In this document: positions 453 to 37,118 of the stretch, in pieces | Position numbering within the stretch: the stretch's first letter is position 1 | How the letters are laid out: every line of letters starts with the position of its first letter | DNA from: Spirochaetes bacterium RBG_16_49_21 | GTDB taxonomy: Bacteria; Spirochaetota; UBA4802; UBA5550 | DNA length: 42,959 nt | Direction: 5' to 3' | Assembly: GCA_001829495.1 (NCBI GenBank) | Contig: MIBJ01000031.1 | Coordinates: 1 to 42,959, forward strand | Notes under the pieces: model-generated | Told to the model about the DNA's origin: nothing | Database searches by the model: none | Seen by the model: only the letters and a program-made list of their open reading frames with translations | Program-made: the position numbers and the translations under genes

Positions 453-2561
453 GTGATAAAGATGAATCCGGAAACGAGAGAAATATTTTTGCATGAGGCG
501 CACGAGATTTTATCGAGCCTCGAATCCGATCTGGTGCTCCTCGAGCAGGGCGGAGACCCCGAGCTCCTGAACCGGGTATTCCGCTGCGCGCATACGCTTA
601 AGGGTAGCTCCGCGGTAGCCGGGTTTGACGAGGTGCGCGGATTCATGCACAGCCTTGAGGGCGTGTTGGACGGACTGCGCTCCGGGATGATCGCGGTCGA
701 CGACCGTTTGACCGATCTTTTGCTCGGCAGCGTGGACTGGGTGAGGCTCGAGCTGTTCGGCGGCGACGATAAAATCGATACGATCGGCATGAAGCAGGAG
801 CTCCTCGACCGGATCAAAGGATACCGGATTGAGGGATCACCGCCGGCCGCCGACCCGGAAAAAGAATTCACGGACGTCGGATACCGGTACTTTAGAATGC
901 GCGCAAAGTTCCGGGACGACATCTTCGAGTTTGGAATAAATCCCCTGTCGATCATCGACGATTTCATATCGATGGGGAGCATCGTGGAAATGAAGGTTGA
1001 CGACGCGCGGCTTCCGGAGCTCGGCAGTCTTAATCCCGAGAAGTGTTACCTCGGCTGGGACGTTATTCTTAAGACCAAATTCCCCGGCGAGAAGCTGAAT
1101 GAAGTCTTTCTGTTCGTGAGGGACGATAACAAAATCGAACTCGAAGACGTGAGCTCCCGGTACATCGATGAATACGGCGGCAAGAAAATAACGGAAGACC
1201 GGAAGATCGGCGAGATCCTTCTACGGAAGGGGATACTGGCACGAGGCGAGCTCGATGAGGTTCTGGAGGAACAGGGCGTTACGAACCGGAAGATAGGGGA
1301 TATTATCATAGAGAAAGGCTTTGCCACGGAAAAGGAGATACAGTGCGCCCTGGCGGAACAGGAGGGATTCAGGAGGAGGATGGAGACCGGGACGGTGCGC
1401 GTCGACGCCCGGAAGCTTGACACCCTGCTGAACCTCTTGGGCGAAATCGTGATCGGCCAGTCGGGAATAGCCAGGATCGCGGACGAGATACCGGAGATAC
1501 AGGGGCTCAGGCTCAAGAACGCGCTCTACGGCCTTGACCGGACCACCCGGGAATTCCAAGAGCAGATCATGTCGATCAGGATGATACCGATCGGACCGAC
1601 CTTCAACCAGTTCAGAAGGTTCATCCGGGACGCCACCCGGGATCTGGGCAAGAAGATCAAGCTCGAGATATTCGGCGAAGAAACGGAGATCGACAAGACG
1701 ATGATAGAGAAGATAAGCGATCCGCTCAAGCACATGATTCGCAACGCCCTCGATCATGGTATTGAGAGTCCGGACGAGCGCGAAGGCAAGGGAAAGAGCT
1801 GCGAGGGACTCGTCCGGCTGAACGCCTACCACCAGGAAGGGAGCGTCTTCATCGAGATTACTGACGACGGGAGGGGCATCGACCGGGCCCGGATACGGGA
1901 GAAAGCCGTCTCCCTCGGCCTCATGAAACAGGATGAGGAGGTGTCTGAAGAGCGCTTGTTTTCATTCATATTCCTGCCCGGTTTTACAACGGTGGAGGAA
2001 ACCAGCGACCTTTCAGGCCGCGGCGTCGGGATGGACGTGGTCAAAACGAACATTGAAGCCATGCGCGGCACGGTTACGGTTGAAACGCTCGAGGGGATAG
2101 GAACGACCTTCCAGATCAAACTGCCGCTTACCCTCGCGATTATAGAGGGGATGCTGGTCCGCATTGGGGAGAACATCTATATCATCCCTCTCCTGTCGAT
2201 AGCCGAGTGTCTGCAGCCGAAGAGAGACGATGTTGCAACGGTCGAAGGCAAGGGAGAACTCCTGCACGTGCGGGGCAGGTATATCCCCCTGATCCGGCTG
2301 CATGACTTATTCGGAATCAAGAGCGACTGCGCCAATCCCTGGGAGTCGCTTGTTGTGGTCGTCGAGTCGGAAGAGGAAGCCGTGGGCATCATGGTTGACG
2401 AACTTGTGGGACAACAACAGATCGTGATCAAGAGCCTGAACGGAAATATATCCAAAACCCGCGCAGTGTCCGGCGCGGCGATTCTCGGCGACGGAATGGT
2501 GGCGTTGATACTGGATATACACGGACTTGTCGGCGAGATGACGACAAGCCAACGTAATTAA
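453..2561 (+). CDS. cheA: Chemotaxis histidine kinase CheA with MshEN-like tandem repeats
   Basis: CheA autophosphorylates on its HPt histidine and passes phosphate to CheY and CheB. Seen: HPt domain at residues 5-105 with His47 in AHTLKGSS; a conserved regulatory stretch at about 143-235 (LNPEKCYLGWDV) found in many non-enteric CheAs; two tandem repeats at 251-274 and 280-303 (KIGEILLRKG, KIGDIIIEKG) with a 5-residue spacer; dimerisation helices from about 315; HATPase with N box MIRNALDHGIE, G1 DDGRGID and G2 GRGVGMDVV; and a C-terminal CheW-like domain. The start is GTG at 453; ATG at 462 would drop three residues and neither has a strong ribosome site. The repeats match the layout of the c-di-GMP-binding MshEN domain. 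A close paralogue lies at 34983-37118. Confidence 0.96.
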   Translation: MIKMNPETREIFLHEAHEILSSLESDLVLLEQGGDPELLNRVFRCAHTLKGSSAVAGFDEVRGFMHSLEGVLDGLRSGMIAVDDRLTDLLLGSVDWVRLELFGGDDKIDTIGMKQELLDRIKGYRIEGSPPAADPEKEFTDVGYRYFRMRAKFRDDIFEFGINPLSIIDDFISMGSIVEMKVDDARLPELGSLNPEKCYLGWDVILKTKFPGEKLNEVFLFVRDDNKIELEDVSSRYIDEYGGKKITEDRKIGEILLRKGILARGELDEVLEEQGVTNRKIGDIIIEKGFATEKEIQCALAEQEGFRRRMETGTVRVDARKLDTLLNLLGEIVIGQSGIARIADEIPEIQGLRLKNALYGLDRTTREFQEQIMSIRMIPIGPTFNQFRRFIRDATRDLGKKIKLEIFGEETEIDKTMIEKISDPLKHMIRNALDHGIESPDEREGKGKSCEGLVRLNAYHQEGSVFIEITDDGRGIDRARIREKAVSLGLMKQDEEVSEERLFSFIFLPGFTTVEETSDLSGRGVGMDVVKTNIEAMRGTVTVETLEGIGTTFQIKLPLTLAIIEGMLVRIGENIYIIPLLSIAECLQPKRDDVATVEGKGELLHVRGRYIPLIRLHDLFGIKSDCANPWESLVVVVESEEEAVGIMVDELVGQQQIVIKSLNGNISKTRAVSGAAILGDGMVALILDIHGLVGEMTTSQRN

Positions 2562-2591: not shown

Positions 2592-4331
2592 ATGGCTGAA
2601 GCGACTGCGGTAACCAGACTCGATAGAGAAAAACAGAACTTGAAGATGTTCAAGGAGAAGGTTTCGAGGATTTATGAGGATATGGGAAATTTTATGATCA
2701 CGACTGCCGATCAGATGGACGATTTCAGAAAGATGATAACGCCGTATGTCGATTATTTTTACCCTCTCAACAGCGGTTCCTCCGGCGATTGTTTTGTAAC
2801 CGATGTGGTGATTCCGAGCGGGCGCGAGCTCGGGAACGCGATTGAACGGGCGGTGAATATCACGGCGGGCGATGCGGAGATGAACGGGAAGGTCTCACGC
2901 GCAATCGAAAGCGTCATGGGGCTGAAGAAGAGCATCGACAACATCCTCTGGCTCATAGACGAGATTGACATATATTCGGAAAATACTCTGGTAATATCCA
3001 CAAAGTACGGCGAAGAGGGGATGTCCCTGGCGCGCATATCGAAAGAGATGGTCATGATGGCCCGATTGGTGAACGGGATCGGCATGCAGTTCAGTGATTA
3101 CCTGGATATGCTTGATGGGCACAAGGACGAGTTTACCGCCATCCAGGAGCGGCTGGAGTCGCTCAGTCATAACCATTTTGCGCTGATGAAGGAGCATCTT
3201 TCAACCGCATTTGGGACAATGGCGAGCGAACTTGAGAGCGTATCAAAACACGTAAACGGGATGCTTTCAAATTCAATAGAGGCGGAGCTCTCGATGAAGA
3301 ATTTCATCAAGAATATTCAGATGGAGGATATTATCCGACAAAAGGCGGAAAAGATCATGTTTTACCTGGACCAGCTCGATGGTGATGCGGGGAGCGAAGA
3401 TTGCAGCGCGATTGCGAACCTGGACGCGGTCGTCCTGCACGTGGCTTCGGACCGGCTTTCCGATCTTGAGAAGGACGTATCGCGGCAGTATGGCGAGGTC
3501 TCCGGGTTTTGCAACCGGATCACGCTTCTCCTGGATGAAATTTTGTCGAAATTTTACGGAGACGGCATAGCGGACGTGGAGAAAGAGCGTAACCGGCTGG
3601 ACATGATATACACCCGGATTGAAAATCTCAAGGACGAGTATGTCCGCTGCATGGAGGAGATCATATCCGGCAAGAGGATGCTCCTGAATCTCTTCGGGAA
3701 GATCATTGATATTCTCTCCCTGTTTGACGGGCTCTTTTCTGAGATAGTGGATATCCTCAAACGCTTCGAGGCATTAAACATGATAACGCGCATAGAGCTT
3801 GCGCGCCATATCAAGCTGTCGCGGGCCCTGGGCGGAGCGCTGACGTCGGTTAAAATCCTTCCGGCGAAAATGAAGAAGATTCTCAAGGAATCCCAGGATC
3901 TTTATCACGGGATACAAAAAAATATTAAAGACGCGGTCGCAATGTATACGGATAATTTCAGGCTCCAGGAAAAGGTGCTTGATGAGTGCATCGCTTCGAT
4001 GAAGACAGTTTCCGTAAAGCTGTATGAGTCGCAAAAGTACTACGGCGATATCTCCAAGGAGATCGGCCGCTATTGCTGGAAGATGCTGGAGTTCATTGAC
4101 GGCAACGGCAGCATCGGAGTACTGTCCGCGGTCATGGAGTCGATTCGCGAGGCCGCGGCCGGCATCAACGGCAGACTGGATTCGGAATACGGCGTCTCAA
4201 AGCCCGACATGGAATCGGTAAAGCGCCTGGTGCTGGAAACGGCTGAAACCGCGCAATGCGGGTCCTTGCTCGACGCCTTGCGCCATGAATTTGAAAGCAA
4301 GAAGACGGCGGAGCGCGTGATACTATTTTAA
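2592..4331 (+). CDS. Helical chemotaxis-associated protein with degenerate receptor hairpin and CheZ-like D-x3-Q motif
   Basis: Not a named family that I can identify with certainty. The 579-residue protein has no signal peptide or membrane segment and is predicted almost wholly helical. Residues 120-165 (IDEIDIYSENTLVIS, then YGEEGMSLARISKEM) look like a worn version of the receptor signalling hairpin. Residues 241-252 (NIQMEDIIRQKA) place Asp246 and Gln250 four residues apart inside a helix, as in the catalytic DFQDLTGQ segment of CheZ. The second half (280-579) is long helical, coiled-coil-like. It sits between cheA and the STAS gene with a strong GGAGGAG ribosome site. The cassette at 33-38 kb has no equivalent. 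A role as CheY-phosphate phosphatase or soluble adaptor is inferred; no cheC, cheX or classical cheZ is visible. Confidence 0.8.
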   Translation: MAEATAVTRLDREKQNLKMFKEKVSRIYEDMGNFMITTADQMDDFRKMITPYVDYFYPLNSGSSGDCFVTDVVIPSGRELGNAIERAVNITAGDAEMNGKVSRAIESVMGLKKSIDNILWLIDEIDIYSENTLVISTKYGEEGMSLARISKEMVMMARLVNGIGMQFSDYLDMLDGHKDEFTAIQERLESLSHNHFALMKEHLSTAFGTMASELESVSKHVNGMLSNSIEAELSMKNFIKNIQMEDIIRQKAEKIMFYLDQLDGDAGSEDCSAIANLDAVVLHVASDRLSDLEKDVSRQYGEVSGFCNRITLLLDEILSKFYGDGIADVEKERNRLDMIYTRIENLKDEYVRCMEEIISGKRMLLNLFGKIIDILSLFDGLFSEIVDILKRFEALNMITRIELARHIKLSRALGGALTSVKILPAKMKKILKESQDLYHGIQKNIKDAVAMYTDNFRLQEKVLDECIASMKTVSVKLYESQKYYGDISKEIGRYCWKMLEFIDGNGSIGVLSAVMESIREAAAGINGRLDSEYGVSKPDMESVKRLVLETAETAQCGSLLDALRHEFESKKTAERVILF

Positions 4332-20864: not shown

Positions 20865-22379
20865 TTGAAAATACTATATAAAACAGCGTCAAAAAAAACA
20901 GAAAAACCATGGCGGGCAACACGGTTTGAGGGTGCGATTTTTAAACAAATCGAAAGTCTTTTGTTTGTTATTGAAAGCGAAAAATCAAAATACGAAAGGT
21001 TGAGCAGCAGCCGGAGCAAGAAAAAAACCGTCTCAAACAATGTGCACGAAAACCTGAAAAAACTCCAAAATGAGAATAAAATTCTTAAAAGCAGCATCGC
21101 GTTTCTTCAAAAGCAGACGGAAATTCTTCAGGCATTATTGGCGGGGATGCGGAAGAATTATCGGATTTCCGACAACATATCATCCGGTTTTTTCCCGGAT
21201 CACGACTATAACAAGTATTTATCCCGATTTGTAGATATCGATATCCAATATTCTCCGAGTATAGGCAAACTCAAGGAAATCGGGAAGCATATCAAAAAAT
21301 TTTTTCTTAATGACCGGCGCTGCACGTATATCTTTATCCATTGCAACGGCATTACGGAAGACCTGCAGAATCTGCTTTATATTAATGCCAGGAAAAATCA
21401 AACCGGTTTGGCAGATTTTCTTCTGGACCGGAGCAAGGTTTATCAATATAATCTTGAAGATCTAGACCTTCCGGAGAGAAAGCTGGGCCGGATCATAATC
21501 GGCAGGTATCCGTATGAATCCGGTGAAAAGGAGACGACCCTAAATAACCGGATAGAAACCGAAATCCTCATAACCAAACGACTTCTGGAAAAATATATCC
21601 TCGAGATTCAGAACAAGGAACTGGCGATCAAAGACGGATTGACCGGACTGTACTCGCGCAAATTTTTCATCGAGCGGTTCACGGAAGAATTTAACAGTAT
21701 GGATATGTTCTCAAAGCTTGACGAGTCCGAACTTAATTTGTTGAAGATAATAATAAAATCCGAGGGTATTGCTGCTCATATTTTACGGAATCATTACTTT
21801 GTTAAATATAAGACGAAGGATGAAGTCCTTTTTAATAGAGTTCTAAATAAACTCAGGTCCCTTAATATTATATCAACAAAAAGGATTAAATATCTGGGGG
21901 ATTTGGAAGACGGCTATTTTTTTGAAAACTCCAAAATGAGCTATAATTTGTATCTGGCCATTTTAGATCTCGACCGCTTCAAGAGTGTAAACGACAAATG
22001 GGGGGGACATTCGGTCGGGGACAAAATCTTACGGGAGTTTGCGAACATAATAAAAAAAAATATAAGGACCATGGATATTCCGGTGCGATACGGCGGTGAG
22101 GAATTTATCATCATATTCCCCAGAGCGATGAATTATTCCCGGATATTCAACGTGCTTGAAAAGATCCGTCATGATTGCGAGCATAAATTGACAGTTTCCT
22201 GGAATGGCAAAAAAAGAAATGTCACCGTATCGATCGGAGTAACGCAGTTGACTAAATTCGATAAGAATATTAATTATATCGTCAATCGGGCGGATGCCGC
22301 ATTGTATAAAGCAAAAAAGAAACGAAACAGGATCGTCCGGTGCATACAGGATAATAACGACGAGTTTCTCTACACATAA
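20865..22379 (+). CDS. Diguanylate cyclase with an insert inside the GGDEF domain
   Basis: 504 residues; makes c-di-GMP from GTP. N-terminal basic region and coiled coil (about 60-95), a GAF-like or unknown sensor domain (about 110-245), then GGDEF from 257 (IKDGLTGLYSRKFF) with metal-binding DLDRFKSVND (368-377), GGEEF at 410-414 and an intact RxxD inhibition site (Arg401-Asp404) exactly five residues before it. Between the first helix and the first strand there are about 85 extra residues (275-358) that look like a winged helix (VLFNRVLNKLRSLNIIS, then GDLEDGYFFE). The start is probably TTG 20865 after GGAG, because no ATG occurs until residue 95. No membrane segment, so cytoplasmic. Confidence 0.9.
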   Translation: MKILYKTASKKTEKPWRATRFEGAIFKQIESLLFVIESEKSKYERLSSSRSKKKTVSNNVHENLKKLQNENKILKSSIAFLQKQTEILQALLAGMRKNYRISDNISSGFFPDHDYNKYLSRFVDIDIQYSPSIGKLKEIGKHIKKFFLNDRRCTYIFIHCNGITEDLQNLLYINARKNQTGLADFLLDRSKVYQYNLEDLDLPERKLGRIIIGRYPYESGEKETTLNNRIETEILITKRLLEKYILEIQNKELAIKDGLTGLYSRKFFIERFTEEFNSMDMFSKLDESELNLLKIIIKSEGIAAHILRNHYFVKYKTKDEVLFNRVLNKLRSLNIISTKRIKYLGDLEDGYFFENSKMSYNLYLAILDLDRFKSVNDKWGGHSVGDKILREFANIIKKNIRTMDIPVRYGGEEFIIIFPRAMNYSRIFNVLEKIRHDCEHKLTVSWNGKKRNVTVSIGVTQLTKFDKNINYIVNRADAALYKAKKKRNRIVRCIQDNNDEFLYT

Positions 22380-34982: not shown

Positions 34983-37118
34983 GTGATGCAAATGAATGTT
35001 GATATAGAGAGCGTATTTTTAAACGAAGCGCAGGAAATTCTATCAGACGTTGAAAGCGACCTGGTGCTTCTTGAGCAGGGAGTCGATGCCGACCTCCTCA
35101 ACCGCATTTTTCGTTACGCGCACACGCTGAAGGGGAGCTCGGCGATCGCCGGGTTTATGGATGTGAGCGAATTTATGCACGGCCTTGAGAGCGTGCTGAA
35201 TCAGCTCCGTTCCGGCACGCTTCAAGTCGACGGCCGTTTGACCGACATGCTTCTGGGGAGTTTTGACCAGGTGAAGCTCATGCTGTTCGGCGGCACGGAT
35301 GATTCCGGCGGCGATGCAAAAAAGCGGTATTATGTCGATGGGCTGAAGGAATATATCGTCACAGAAGCGGAGAAGCCCGGAGAAAAACCGGAAGAGGAAC
35401 CGGAAGGGGAGATGAAGGATATTGGGTACCGGTATTACCGCGTACGGGCGCGATTCAGGGAGGACATCTTCGAAAGGGGTATTGATCCGCTTTCGATCAT
35501 GGATGATTTCGTCTCTTTGGGCAGCGTGGTGGAGATGGAGGTCGATGATGCGAAGCTGCCGGGACTTGCTGACCTTGACCCTGAGAAATGCTATATCGGA
35601 TGGGATGTAACCCTCAAGACTAAATCTCCACGGGAGAAGATTGACGGGGTCTTCTTATTCGTAAAGGACGATAACGAGATCATACTGGAAGACGTGAGCT
35701 CCCGATACATCGGCGGGAATGATGAAGAGAAACAGGTTGAGGACAAAAAGATCGGCGAGATACTGGTACTCAAGGGAATAATAACGAGGAAGGATCTTGA
35801 GGAAGTTTTAGCACTGCAAGACATTAAGAACCGGAAGATCGGGGACGTTATTGTCGAGAAAGGGTATGCCACGGAAAAGGAGATACACTATGCCCTGAGA
35901 GAGCAGGAGCGGATCCGGACAAGGATAGAGACTGAAACGGTACGGGTTGATACGAAGAAGCTCGACGGTCTGCTGAATCTCCTCGGCGAGATCGTGATCG
36001 GCCAGTCGGCGATTGTTCGAATCGCCGATCAGCTGCCCGAGGAACAGGGGTACGTGCTTAAGAACGCGCTCTATGCTCTCGACCGGACCACGCGGCAATT
36101 TCAGGATCAGATCATGTCGATCCGGATGATTCCGATCGGACCGACGTTCAGCCAGTTCAGGAGATTCGTTCGGGACACGGCGCGAAACCTCGGCAAAGAG
36201 ATAAAGTTCGAGATATTCGGCGAGGAAACCGAGCTGGATAAGACGGTTATTGAGAAGATCAGCGATCCGCTGAAGCATATGATACGTAATGCGGTGGATC
36301 ACGGAATTGAGGACGCTGCGGAACGCGAGCGCACGGGGAAGGAGCGCGAGGGCCATATACGATTGAACGCGTACCATCAGGAGGGGAACGTCTTTATAGA
36401 GATCTCTGACGACGGGAGGGGGATTGAGAGGGATAAGATACGCGACAAGGCGGTTTCCCGTGGCCTTTTGAAACCGGGCGAGGAGACAGCGGATGACCGG
36501 CTCTTTTCCTTTCTATTCATCCCCGGATTTACCACCGCTGATGAGGCATGCGATTTGTCAGGCCGCGGGGTCGGGATGGACGTAGTGAAGACGAATATCG
36601 AGGCTTTGCGGGGCAGTGTTGAAATAGAAACGGTACCGGATAGAGGAACGACCTTTCGCCTCAAGCTGCCGCTCACCCTTGCGATCATCGAGGGAATGCT
36701 GGTCCGTTCCGGGAAGAATGTTTACATCATTCCCCTGCTTTCGATTGTTGAATGCCTGCAGCCGAAGAAAGAAGATATTGAAACCATTGAAGGCAAAGGG
36801 GAGCTTGTGCGGGTGAGGGACAGCTATATTTCCCTGGTGCGGCTGTCCGATTTATTCGGGATAAGGGCCGAGTGCACAAACCCCTGGGAATCGCTTGTGG
36901 TTATTGTCGAGTCGGTCGGGGGGATGGCGGGGATCATGGTTGATGAACTGATGGGCCAGCAGCAGATTGTGATTAAAAGCCTGAGCGGTCATATTTCGGA
37001 TACGCGCGCAATATCCGGGGCTGCAATACTCGGTGACGGCAGGGTGGCGCTGATACTGGACATACACGGTCTTATCGGCGAGATGGCAAAGAAGAGGTGG
37101 ATCGATGAAAATAATTAA
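34983..37118 (+). CDS. cheA: Chemotaxis histidine kinase CheA (second copy) with MshEN-like tandem repeats
   Basis: 711 residues, colinear and highly similar to CheA at 453-2561. HPt His47 (YAHTLKGSS), regulatory stretch with LDPEKCYIGWDV, two 24-residue repeats at 256-279 and 285-308 (KIGEILVLKG; KIGDVIVEKG) with spacer DIKNR, dimerisation helices, HATPase (MIRNAVDHGIE, SDDGRGIE, GRGVGMDVV) and CheW-like end. A Glu/Pro-rich linker at 128-145 is longer than in the first copy. The start is GTG 34983 or ATG 34986/34992; none has a strong ribosome site. The 3' end overlaps the STAS gene by 14 bases, where the first cassette has the 579-residue gene inserted. Confidence 0.96.
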   Translation: MMQMNVDIESVFLNEAQEILSDVESDLVLLEQGVDADLLNRIFRYAHTLKGSSAIAGFMDVSEFMHGLESVLNQLRSGTLQVDGRLTDMLLGSFDQVKLMLFGGTDDSGGDAKKRYYVDGLKEYIVTEAEKPGEKPEEEPEGEMKDIGYRYYRVRARFREDIFERGIDPLSIMDDFVSLGSVVEMEVDDAKLPGLADLDPEKCYIGWDVTLKTKSPREKIDGVFLFVKDDNEIILEDVSSRYIGGNDEEKQVEDKKIGEILVLKGIITRKDLEEVLALQDIKNRKIGDVIVEKGYATEKEIHYALREQERIRTRIETETVRVDTKKLDGLLNLLGEIVIGQSAIVRIADQLPEEQGYVLKNALYALDRTTRQFQDQIMSIRMIPIGPTFSQFRRFVRDTARNLGKEIKFEIFGEETELDKTVIEKISDPLKHMIRNAVDHGIEDAAERERTGKEREGHIRLNAYHQEGNVFIEISDDGRGIERDKIRDKAVSRGLLKPGEETADDRLFSFLFIPGFTTADEACDLSGRGVGMDVVKTNIEALRGSVEIETVPDRGTTFRLKLPLTLAIIEGMLVRSGKNVYIIPLLSIVECLQPKKEDIETIEGKGELVRVRDSYISLVRLSDLFGIRAECTNPWESLVVIVESVGGMAGIMVDELMGQQQIVIKSLSGHISDTRAISGAAILGDGRVALILDIHGLIGEMAKKRWIDENN

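Follow-up and report, generated by a model that had tools for sequence, protein, structure and literature searches.

Described MshEN domains

Two pilus ATPases, MshE of Vibrio cholerae and PilF of Thermus thermophilus, contain the described MshEN domains with which the present locus was compared. The N-terminal domain of MshE (5htl) consists of two 24-residue motifs separated by a 5-residue spacer, the layout and contact positions being those also found in the chemotaxis kinase CheA1 reported here. Wang et al. 2016 (PMC5013675) assigned ligand-contact roles to positions 1, 2, 3, 17, 21 and 24 of each motif. MshE differs from CheA1 in having Arg at position 1 of both motifs and an alpha/beta C-subdomain, and in being a pilus ATPase rather than a kinase. 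Its N-subdomain alone (MshEN_N, residues 1-62) binds c-di-GMP at 0.35 uM, and the relaxed search motif of the same authors also admits Lys at position 1 (PMC5013675).

The closest solved relative of the CheA1 domain is PilF GSPII-B (8pdk, 9gl5 and 8pfa), and Lys starts motif I in both. GSPII-B contains Lys167 in motif I, has Leu at the start of motif II and binds c-di-GMP with a KD of 6 nM, whereas the K167R substitution takes the KD up to 150 nM; its authors widened the consensus for position 1 to R/K/L in 2024 (PMC11731258). It differs from CheA1 in belonging to a pilus ATPase, in having a C-terminal subdomain and in a motif II that is one residue shorter and begins with Leu (PMC11731258), whereas in CheA1 both motifs begin with Lys and P3 comes directly after the motif. 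Another PilF domain, GSPII-A, has been studied in reconstructed form (PMC12002112). Ile in place of Leu at two positions of motif II carries a 2.4-fold cost, Ala at Gly3 adds a further 10-fold, and Ser at position 1 added on top of these abolishes binding. In full GSPII-A, the restored motif still does not bind, owing to neighbouring structure (PMC12002112). A perfect motif is thus not sufficient for binding, because neighbouring structure can block it.

An earlier reading of the present DNA (the first-pass annotation) had suggested that such repeats may exist in other CheAs, and this is correct: MshEN in CheA has been in print since 2016, when CheA was named among the MshEN-associated proteins in the main text of Wang et al. 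(PMC5013675). Among the open-licence PubMed Central papers listed in literature searches, no published test of an MshEN role in CheA was found. In the covered part of a survey of c-di-GMP proteins in Leptospira (PMC12943098), GspE is the one MshEN protein reported and no CheA with MshEN is mentioned, and the covered parts of PMC8844925, PMC10519070, PMC10333796 and PMC12564702 yielded no content on an MshEN-CheA. Already known, then, are the occurrence of MshEN in CheA and a curated model that recognises such proteins. New, as far as the listed open-licence PubMed Central papers show, are a worked-out case from one spirochaete order, a natural series of intact and changed contacts, and a blind spot of the profile PF05157.

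Gene and domain organization of the CheA proteins

The DNA analysed (the window, a stretch of 42,959 nucleotides in all) comes from Spirochaetes bacterium RBG_16_49_21. The gene for CheA1 (702 amino acids) lies at 453..2561 on the plus strand, has a GTG start and encodes the domains P1, P2-like, MshEN_N, P3, P4 and P5 in that order. The protein is recognised as a CheA by Pfam matches to Hpt, H-kinase_dim, HATPase_c and CheW, all above cut-off. P1 (Hpt; PF01627, 51.2 bits) occupies residues 9-90 (477..722, plus strand). A P2-like domain at about residues 145-232 (885..1148, plus strand) was assigned from predicted secondary structure and has the order strand-helix-strand-strand-helix-strand in the full-length model; the Pfam search found no P2 domain (PF07194) in CheA1. 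The P3 dimerisation domain covers residues 314-375 (1392..1577, plus strand), as indicated by PF02895 and predicted helices.

Upstream of CheA1 lies the truncated end of an apparent receptor gene (MCPsignal, below cut-off). The genes downstream encode a 579-residue protein (window 2592-4331), for which no Pfam match was found at E 0.001, followed by a STAS protein, a CheY-type receiver, CheW, CheR and CheB. Relatives of CheA1 were identified at 23 loci, all of them in spirochaete metagenome-assembled genomes, and the nearest is 69% identical over its best segment.

The window also contains a paralogue, CheA2 (711 amino acids; 34983..37118, plus strand), in which Pfam detects the same architecture, including Hpt, H-kinase_dim, HATPase_c and CheW. 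It is preceded by a receptor with a CZB domain and followed by a receiver and CheW. A third CheA (L099, contig C40 of the same genome) has these four domains together with a P2 domain recognised by Pfam; within the 917 of its 1048 residues that were covered, no MshEN motif was found. This protein has a long extra C-terminal stretch past CheW, the covered part of which gave no Pfam match.

The genome contains 16 GGDEF matches (two of which are adjacent pieces on contig C28), 4 EAL and 4 PilZ matches, so that c-di-GMP is probably made and used in the cell. FliG has 2 matches. The sole GGDEF gene in the window encodes a protein of 504 amino acids (20865-22379) and is located between both chemotaxis clusters. 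Elsewhere (G000:C17:41790-41945, in L005; 60.8 bits to the NCBIfam model NF053729), the genome apparently encodes an MshEN protein that stands alone and has no more than 71 residues, and short frames like it were listed for many relatives in the search with that model.

The tandem repeat of CheA1 and its profile matches

The MshEN_N (c-di-GMP_motif) domain of CheA1 covers residues 251-303 (1203..1361, plus strand), as assigned from NF053729.1, phmmer and Foldseek. It is composed of motif I (residues 251-274; 1203..1274), a 5-residue spacer (residues 275-279; 1275..1289) and motif II (residues 280-303; 1290..1361), all on the plus strand. The two 24-residue repeats have the coordinates, frame and residues that the first-pass annotation had claimed for them; in both, positions 3 and 10 are Gly, position 17 is Leu or Ile, position 21 is Leu and position 24 is Gln. 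The BLOSUM62 score of one repeat against the other is 49, a value equalled in none of 200,000 shuffles, and the relaxed published motif occurred twice at a distance of 29 residues in none of 20,000 shuffled CheA1 sequences. The same motif is found four times in the whole window in six frames, twice each in CheA1 and CheA2. The repeat pair of CheA1 is not a product of chance.

The curated NCBIfam model NF053729 'c-di-GMP_motif' (53 positions, cut-off 38 bits) matches residues 251-303 of CheA1 over positions 1-53 of 53 with 48.2 bits. Residues 256-308 of CheA2 (35748..35906, plus strand), in which all contact positions are retained, are likewise matched over 1-53 of 53 with 52.6 bits, and the GspE of the same genome with 53.4 bits. 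In a phmmer search of PDB sequences with the CheA1 region, Thermus PilF was the top match (full-length chain 6f8l, E 1.7e-14), followed by PilF GSPII-B (8pdk, E 6.2e-8), MshE (5htl, E 3.8e-6) and then PilB chains; among the 18 matches at E <= 10, the 11 at E <= 0.0034 were all PilF, MshE or PilB. The identification of the region as MshEN is upheld, more exactly as its N-subdomain, by the curated profile, the sequence match to solved c-di-GMP-binding domains and the predicted fold.

A chance resemblance to some other repeat of the helix-turn-helix type, for instance the C-terminus of fumarase or the DNA-binding domain of ArgR, is hardly credible as the source of the likeness. Weak signals of this kind were seen: the excised CheA1 region scored 23.0 bits with FumaraseC_C and 16.6 bits with Arg_repressor (cut-off 27), and fumarases and aspartases occur further down among the Foldseek matches. 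However, FumaraseC_C (16.2 and 23.0 bits against a cut-off of 32.5) and Arg_repressor both remain below cut-off with a best stretch of 26-28 residues, whereas NF053729 covers all 53 positions above its own, and Foldseek ranks PilF and MshE first, with smaller rmsd than the fumarases and aspartases. FumaraseC_C and Arg_repressor were rejected as candidates for the region.

A profile search with PF05157, proposed in the first-pass annotation, gave no match in CheA1, and a control with the GspE of the same genome (contig C49) indicates that PF05157 is the wrong test. Both motifs of this GspE lie in residues 1-62, PF05157 matches only residues 63-143, and residues 1-62 on their own gave no match despite the presence of both motifs. 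As observed in this one control protein, PF05157 appears to describe the C-terminal subdomain and to miss the ligand-binding motif half. It was dropped as a membership test because the motif half of the genome's own GspE was also missed. In motif I of this GspE (G000:C49, P0002), position 1 is His and Gly10 is replaced by Asn, and binding of c-di-GMP by the protein is uncertain even though it passes NF053729.

Predicted ligand-contact residues

The contacts of CheA1 assigned by homology are K251, I252, G253, L267, L271 and Q274 in motif I and K280, I281, G282, I296, L300 and Q303 in motif II. With Lys allowed at position 1 and other hydrophobic residues in place of Leu, 12 of 12 contact positions are conserved in both CheA1 and CheA2. 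The 2016 consensus to the letter (Arg at position 1; Leu at position 2 and, in motif II, at 17) is not reproduced. Lys at position 1 had been regarded in the first-pass annotation as a possible weakness, a concern not borne out by PilF GSPII-B, which binds tightly with Lys in motif I. Position 12 of motif II is Ala in all 25 CheAs compared, against Leu/Val in the consensus, where it is classed as a core and not a contact position.

The missing C-subdomain of CheA1 is no bar to binding, because residues 1-62 of MshE alone suffice, and it follows from the homologues that a 53-residue unit can be enough for c-di-GMP binding. By strong analogy with these homologues, the CheA1 domain likely binds c-di-GMP.

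Predicted fold

An AlphaFold2 model of CheA1 residues 243-330 was built from 25 sequences (pLDDT 73.5, pTM 0.50). It predicts four helices, forming a four-helix bundle, followed by the start of P3. The structural overlay proposed in the first-pass annotation gave a close fit: over 53-55 columns, the model lies within 0.8-1.1 A of PilF GSPII-B and MshE. In the Foldseek alignments, the rmsd is 0.8-1.1 A for MshE and 0.8-1.0 A for c-di-GMP-bound PilF GSPII-B, the latter with 44-45% of residues identical across 54-55 columns. The probability is 1.00 for both, and the best twelve PDB matches are exclusively PilF, MshE or PilB N-domains. The Foldseek E-values are weak despite the good local geometry (best 0.057; 0 of 94 at E <= 0.001). 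Rank 5 (2.0 A) is PilF GSPII-A, which does not bind c-di-GMP (PMC12002112); with a non-binder among the fold matches, likeness of fold is no proof of binding.

The full-length CheA1 model (pLDDT 72.8, pTM 0.34) has the order P1, P2-like, MshEN, P3, P4 and P5. Its best PDB matches are the CheA structures 6s1k and 1b3q (39-43% identity, about 380 columns). The matched chains of about 370-390 residues are too short for a whole P1-to-P5 protein, and we take them to cover P3-P5. The fourth MshEN helix, predicted at about residues 293-313, reaches up to P3, and the last MshEN helix likewise ends near residue 313 in the full-length model. The two models disagree on the start of helix 1 (residue 245 versus 252), and the placement of MshEN against P3 is unreliable in both because pTM is low.

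Conservation of the contact positions

CheA1 and CheA2 were compared with the 23 spirochaete loci, giving 25 CheAs. The tandem layout is alignable in all 25. In 22 of them the relaxed regular expression is matched by both repeats; one repeat fails to match in L007 and L012, and neither matches in L018. L012 has His at position 24 of motif I, and L018 has Ala at position 3 of motif II. After removal of two near-copies (23 of 25 sequences), the mean entropy is 0.70 bits at the contact positions versus 1.93 bits at the other non-core positions. The probability of an equally low value in a random draw is 4e-5 without the hydrophobic-core positions and 0.0014 with them. The hydrophobic-core positions have a mean entropy of 0.74, and part of the low entropy of the contact positions is due to the fold; the polar contact residues are more informative. 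Among 32 distinct CheAs, a set that excludes six short same-order segments (L080-L085), Lys or Arg occupies position 1 of motif I in 31 and of motif II in 32, and Gln24 is present in 28 (motif I) and 32 (motif II), with no correction for relatedness. In each of L080-L085, position 1 is Lys in both motifs and Gln24 is missing from motif I.

Distribution in the phylum and loss of contacts

The sample comprised 295 genomes of the phylum, 38 of which belong to the same order (own genome included). A profile of the CheA region matched 127 of the 295 genomes at E <= 1e-6, and NF053729 was above cut-off in 125; judged by frame length, both counts include GspE and other proteins. Of the 38 same-order genomes, 36 gave a CheA match with E no higher than 7.8e-21, the frames being 395-734 residues long; G115 and G096 gave only GspE-length matches near 1e-12. 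When the best-scoring CheA of each genome is considered, all contacts and the 5-residue spacer are kept in 23 of these 36 genomes. A contact position or the spacer is changed in the other 13, which include L080-L085: His replaces position 24 of motif I in seven, Ala replaces position 3 of motif II in two, Met occurs at position 1 in one, and three combine a 4-residue spacer with an altered position 24. These changes argue against a universal need for binding.

A further 40 lower-scoring matches, hand-picked from the listed matches extending as far as the profile's P3 end, comprise 7 same-order best CheAs (L079 repeats L058) and 33 others, namely 27 from other orders of the phylum and 6 second copies in same-order genomes. 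The spacer has a length other than 5 residues in 22 of these 33 CheA-type segments, often with contacts lost. Of those 22, counted without regard to kinship, all keep Gly3 in both motifs and Gln24 in motif II, 10 keep Lys/Arg1 of motif II, and 12 keep Gln24 of motif I. Of the 11 segments with a 5-residue spacer, counted in the same way, 8 have Lys/Arg1 of motif II, 9 have Gln24 of motif I and only 3 retain Gly10 of motif II.

Such losses bear on a reading in which the fold is kept and c-di-GMP binding is lost, the domain being a structural spacer between P2 and P3. The changed contacts or spacer in 13 of 36 same-order genomes, the 22 of 33 further segments with another spacer length, and the example of PilF GSPII-A, which keeps its fold without binding (PMC12002112), are all in its favour, but CheA1 and CheA2 retain 12 of 12 contacts together with the 5-residue spacer. 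Fold alone also seems not to hold Lys/Arg1 of motif II and Gln24 of motif I in the segments with other spacers, where, kinship ignored, Gly3 is invariant and those two residues are kept in about half; the equally invariant Gln24 of motif II does not fit this contrast between fold and contact. Taken together, a purely structural role is quite unlikely for CheA1.

Eighteen CheA-type segments from other spirochaete orders (L059, L061-L064, L067, L068, L071, L086-L091, L094-L096 and L098) contain a related repeat pair with a spacer of 1-2 residues, directly before P3. At least one contact is lost in 13 of the 18 and none in 5, and this short-spacer pair is possibly a decayed or an ancestral form of the MshEN domain. 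Among the second CheA-type copies of same-order genomes, L065, L066, L074 and L076 have a spacer of 9-11 residues, and L070 and L073 have a 5-residue spacer with Arg replacing Gly10 of motif II.

A P3-P5 tree was constructed from 54 rows (33 distinct), from which L037 (no frame through the filter) and L028 (too short) were excluded; L099 served as outgroup and has a very long branch. The broken-contact label requires 4 changes on this tree. The number of contact losses is not fixed by the tree, because well-supported branches force only 2 of the 4.

Proposed mechanism

The preferred reading, to which we assign a probability of about 0.62, is that each of the two CheAs contains a stand-alone MshEN N-subdomain (residues 251-303 in CheA1, 256-308 in CheA2) that binds c-di-GMP and acts on the kinase. 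The two 24-residue motifs would form a four-helix bundle taking up one c-di-GMP per subunit. The ligand, made by the GGDEF proteins of the genome, would bind between the two motifs and, by analogy with the solved domains, contact K251, G253, Q274, K280, G282 and Q303 together with the hydrophobic positions.

Control of the kinase through this binding is plausible. The domain lies between the P2-like domain and P3, with a predicted fourth helix that bears the second contact Gln (Q303) and runs to about residue 313. Binding could alter the geometry towards the P3/P4 core, because Q303 sits on the helix leading to P3. Bound c-di-GMP would order or move the linker from P1/P2 to P3, and the altered geometry of P1/P2 versus P3/P4 may change the access of P1 to the P4 kinase domain and hence the rate of autophosphorylation. 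The CheY-type receiver and CheB, whose genes lie nearby, would then differ in their phosphorylation as well. The sign of the c-di-GMP effect on the kinase is not predicted.

The domain might instead bind c-di-GMP without gating the kinase and set the location or the partners of CheA, for example through a partner protein or oligomerisation. MshEN_N is described as able to homodimerise and to fuse with other domains (Wang et al., PMC5013675), and c-di-GMP heterogeneity in P. aeruginosa has been linked with the chemotaxis machinery and with a phosphodiesterase that is partitioned (PMC3861689), both of which would suit such a role. The gap between the motif and P3 is only 10 residues, however, which favours mechanical coupling over mere localisation, and a role confined to location or partners is considered rather unlikely.

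Biological meaning

Extended to the order, the argument is that in one spirochaete order CheA itself would be a c-di-GMP receptor, with the binding domain beside the dimerisation domain and the kinase output reset directly, without a PilZ adaptor, and that several lineages have apparently lost the contacts; the chances for and against this wider claim appear evenly balanced. Relatives with changes at single contact positions would provide natural non-binding controls, if the contacts are indeed lost. A warning also applies to surveys with PF05157, which seems to overlook the ligand-binding half of MshEN. The genome, with two CheAs that contain the domain and one that does not, would be a compact and testable system. 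If both binding and action on the kinase are true, the level of c-di-GMP would be a direct input to the chemosensory kinase, and not just to the motor, receptors and adaptors, and the third CheA, which is without the domain, would stay blind to c-di-GMP.
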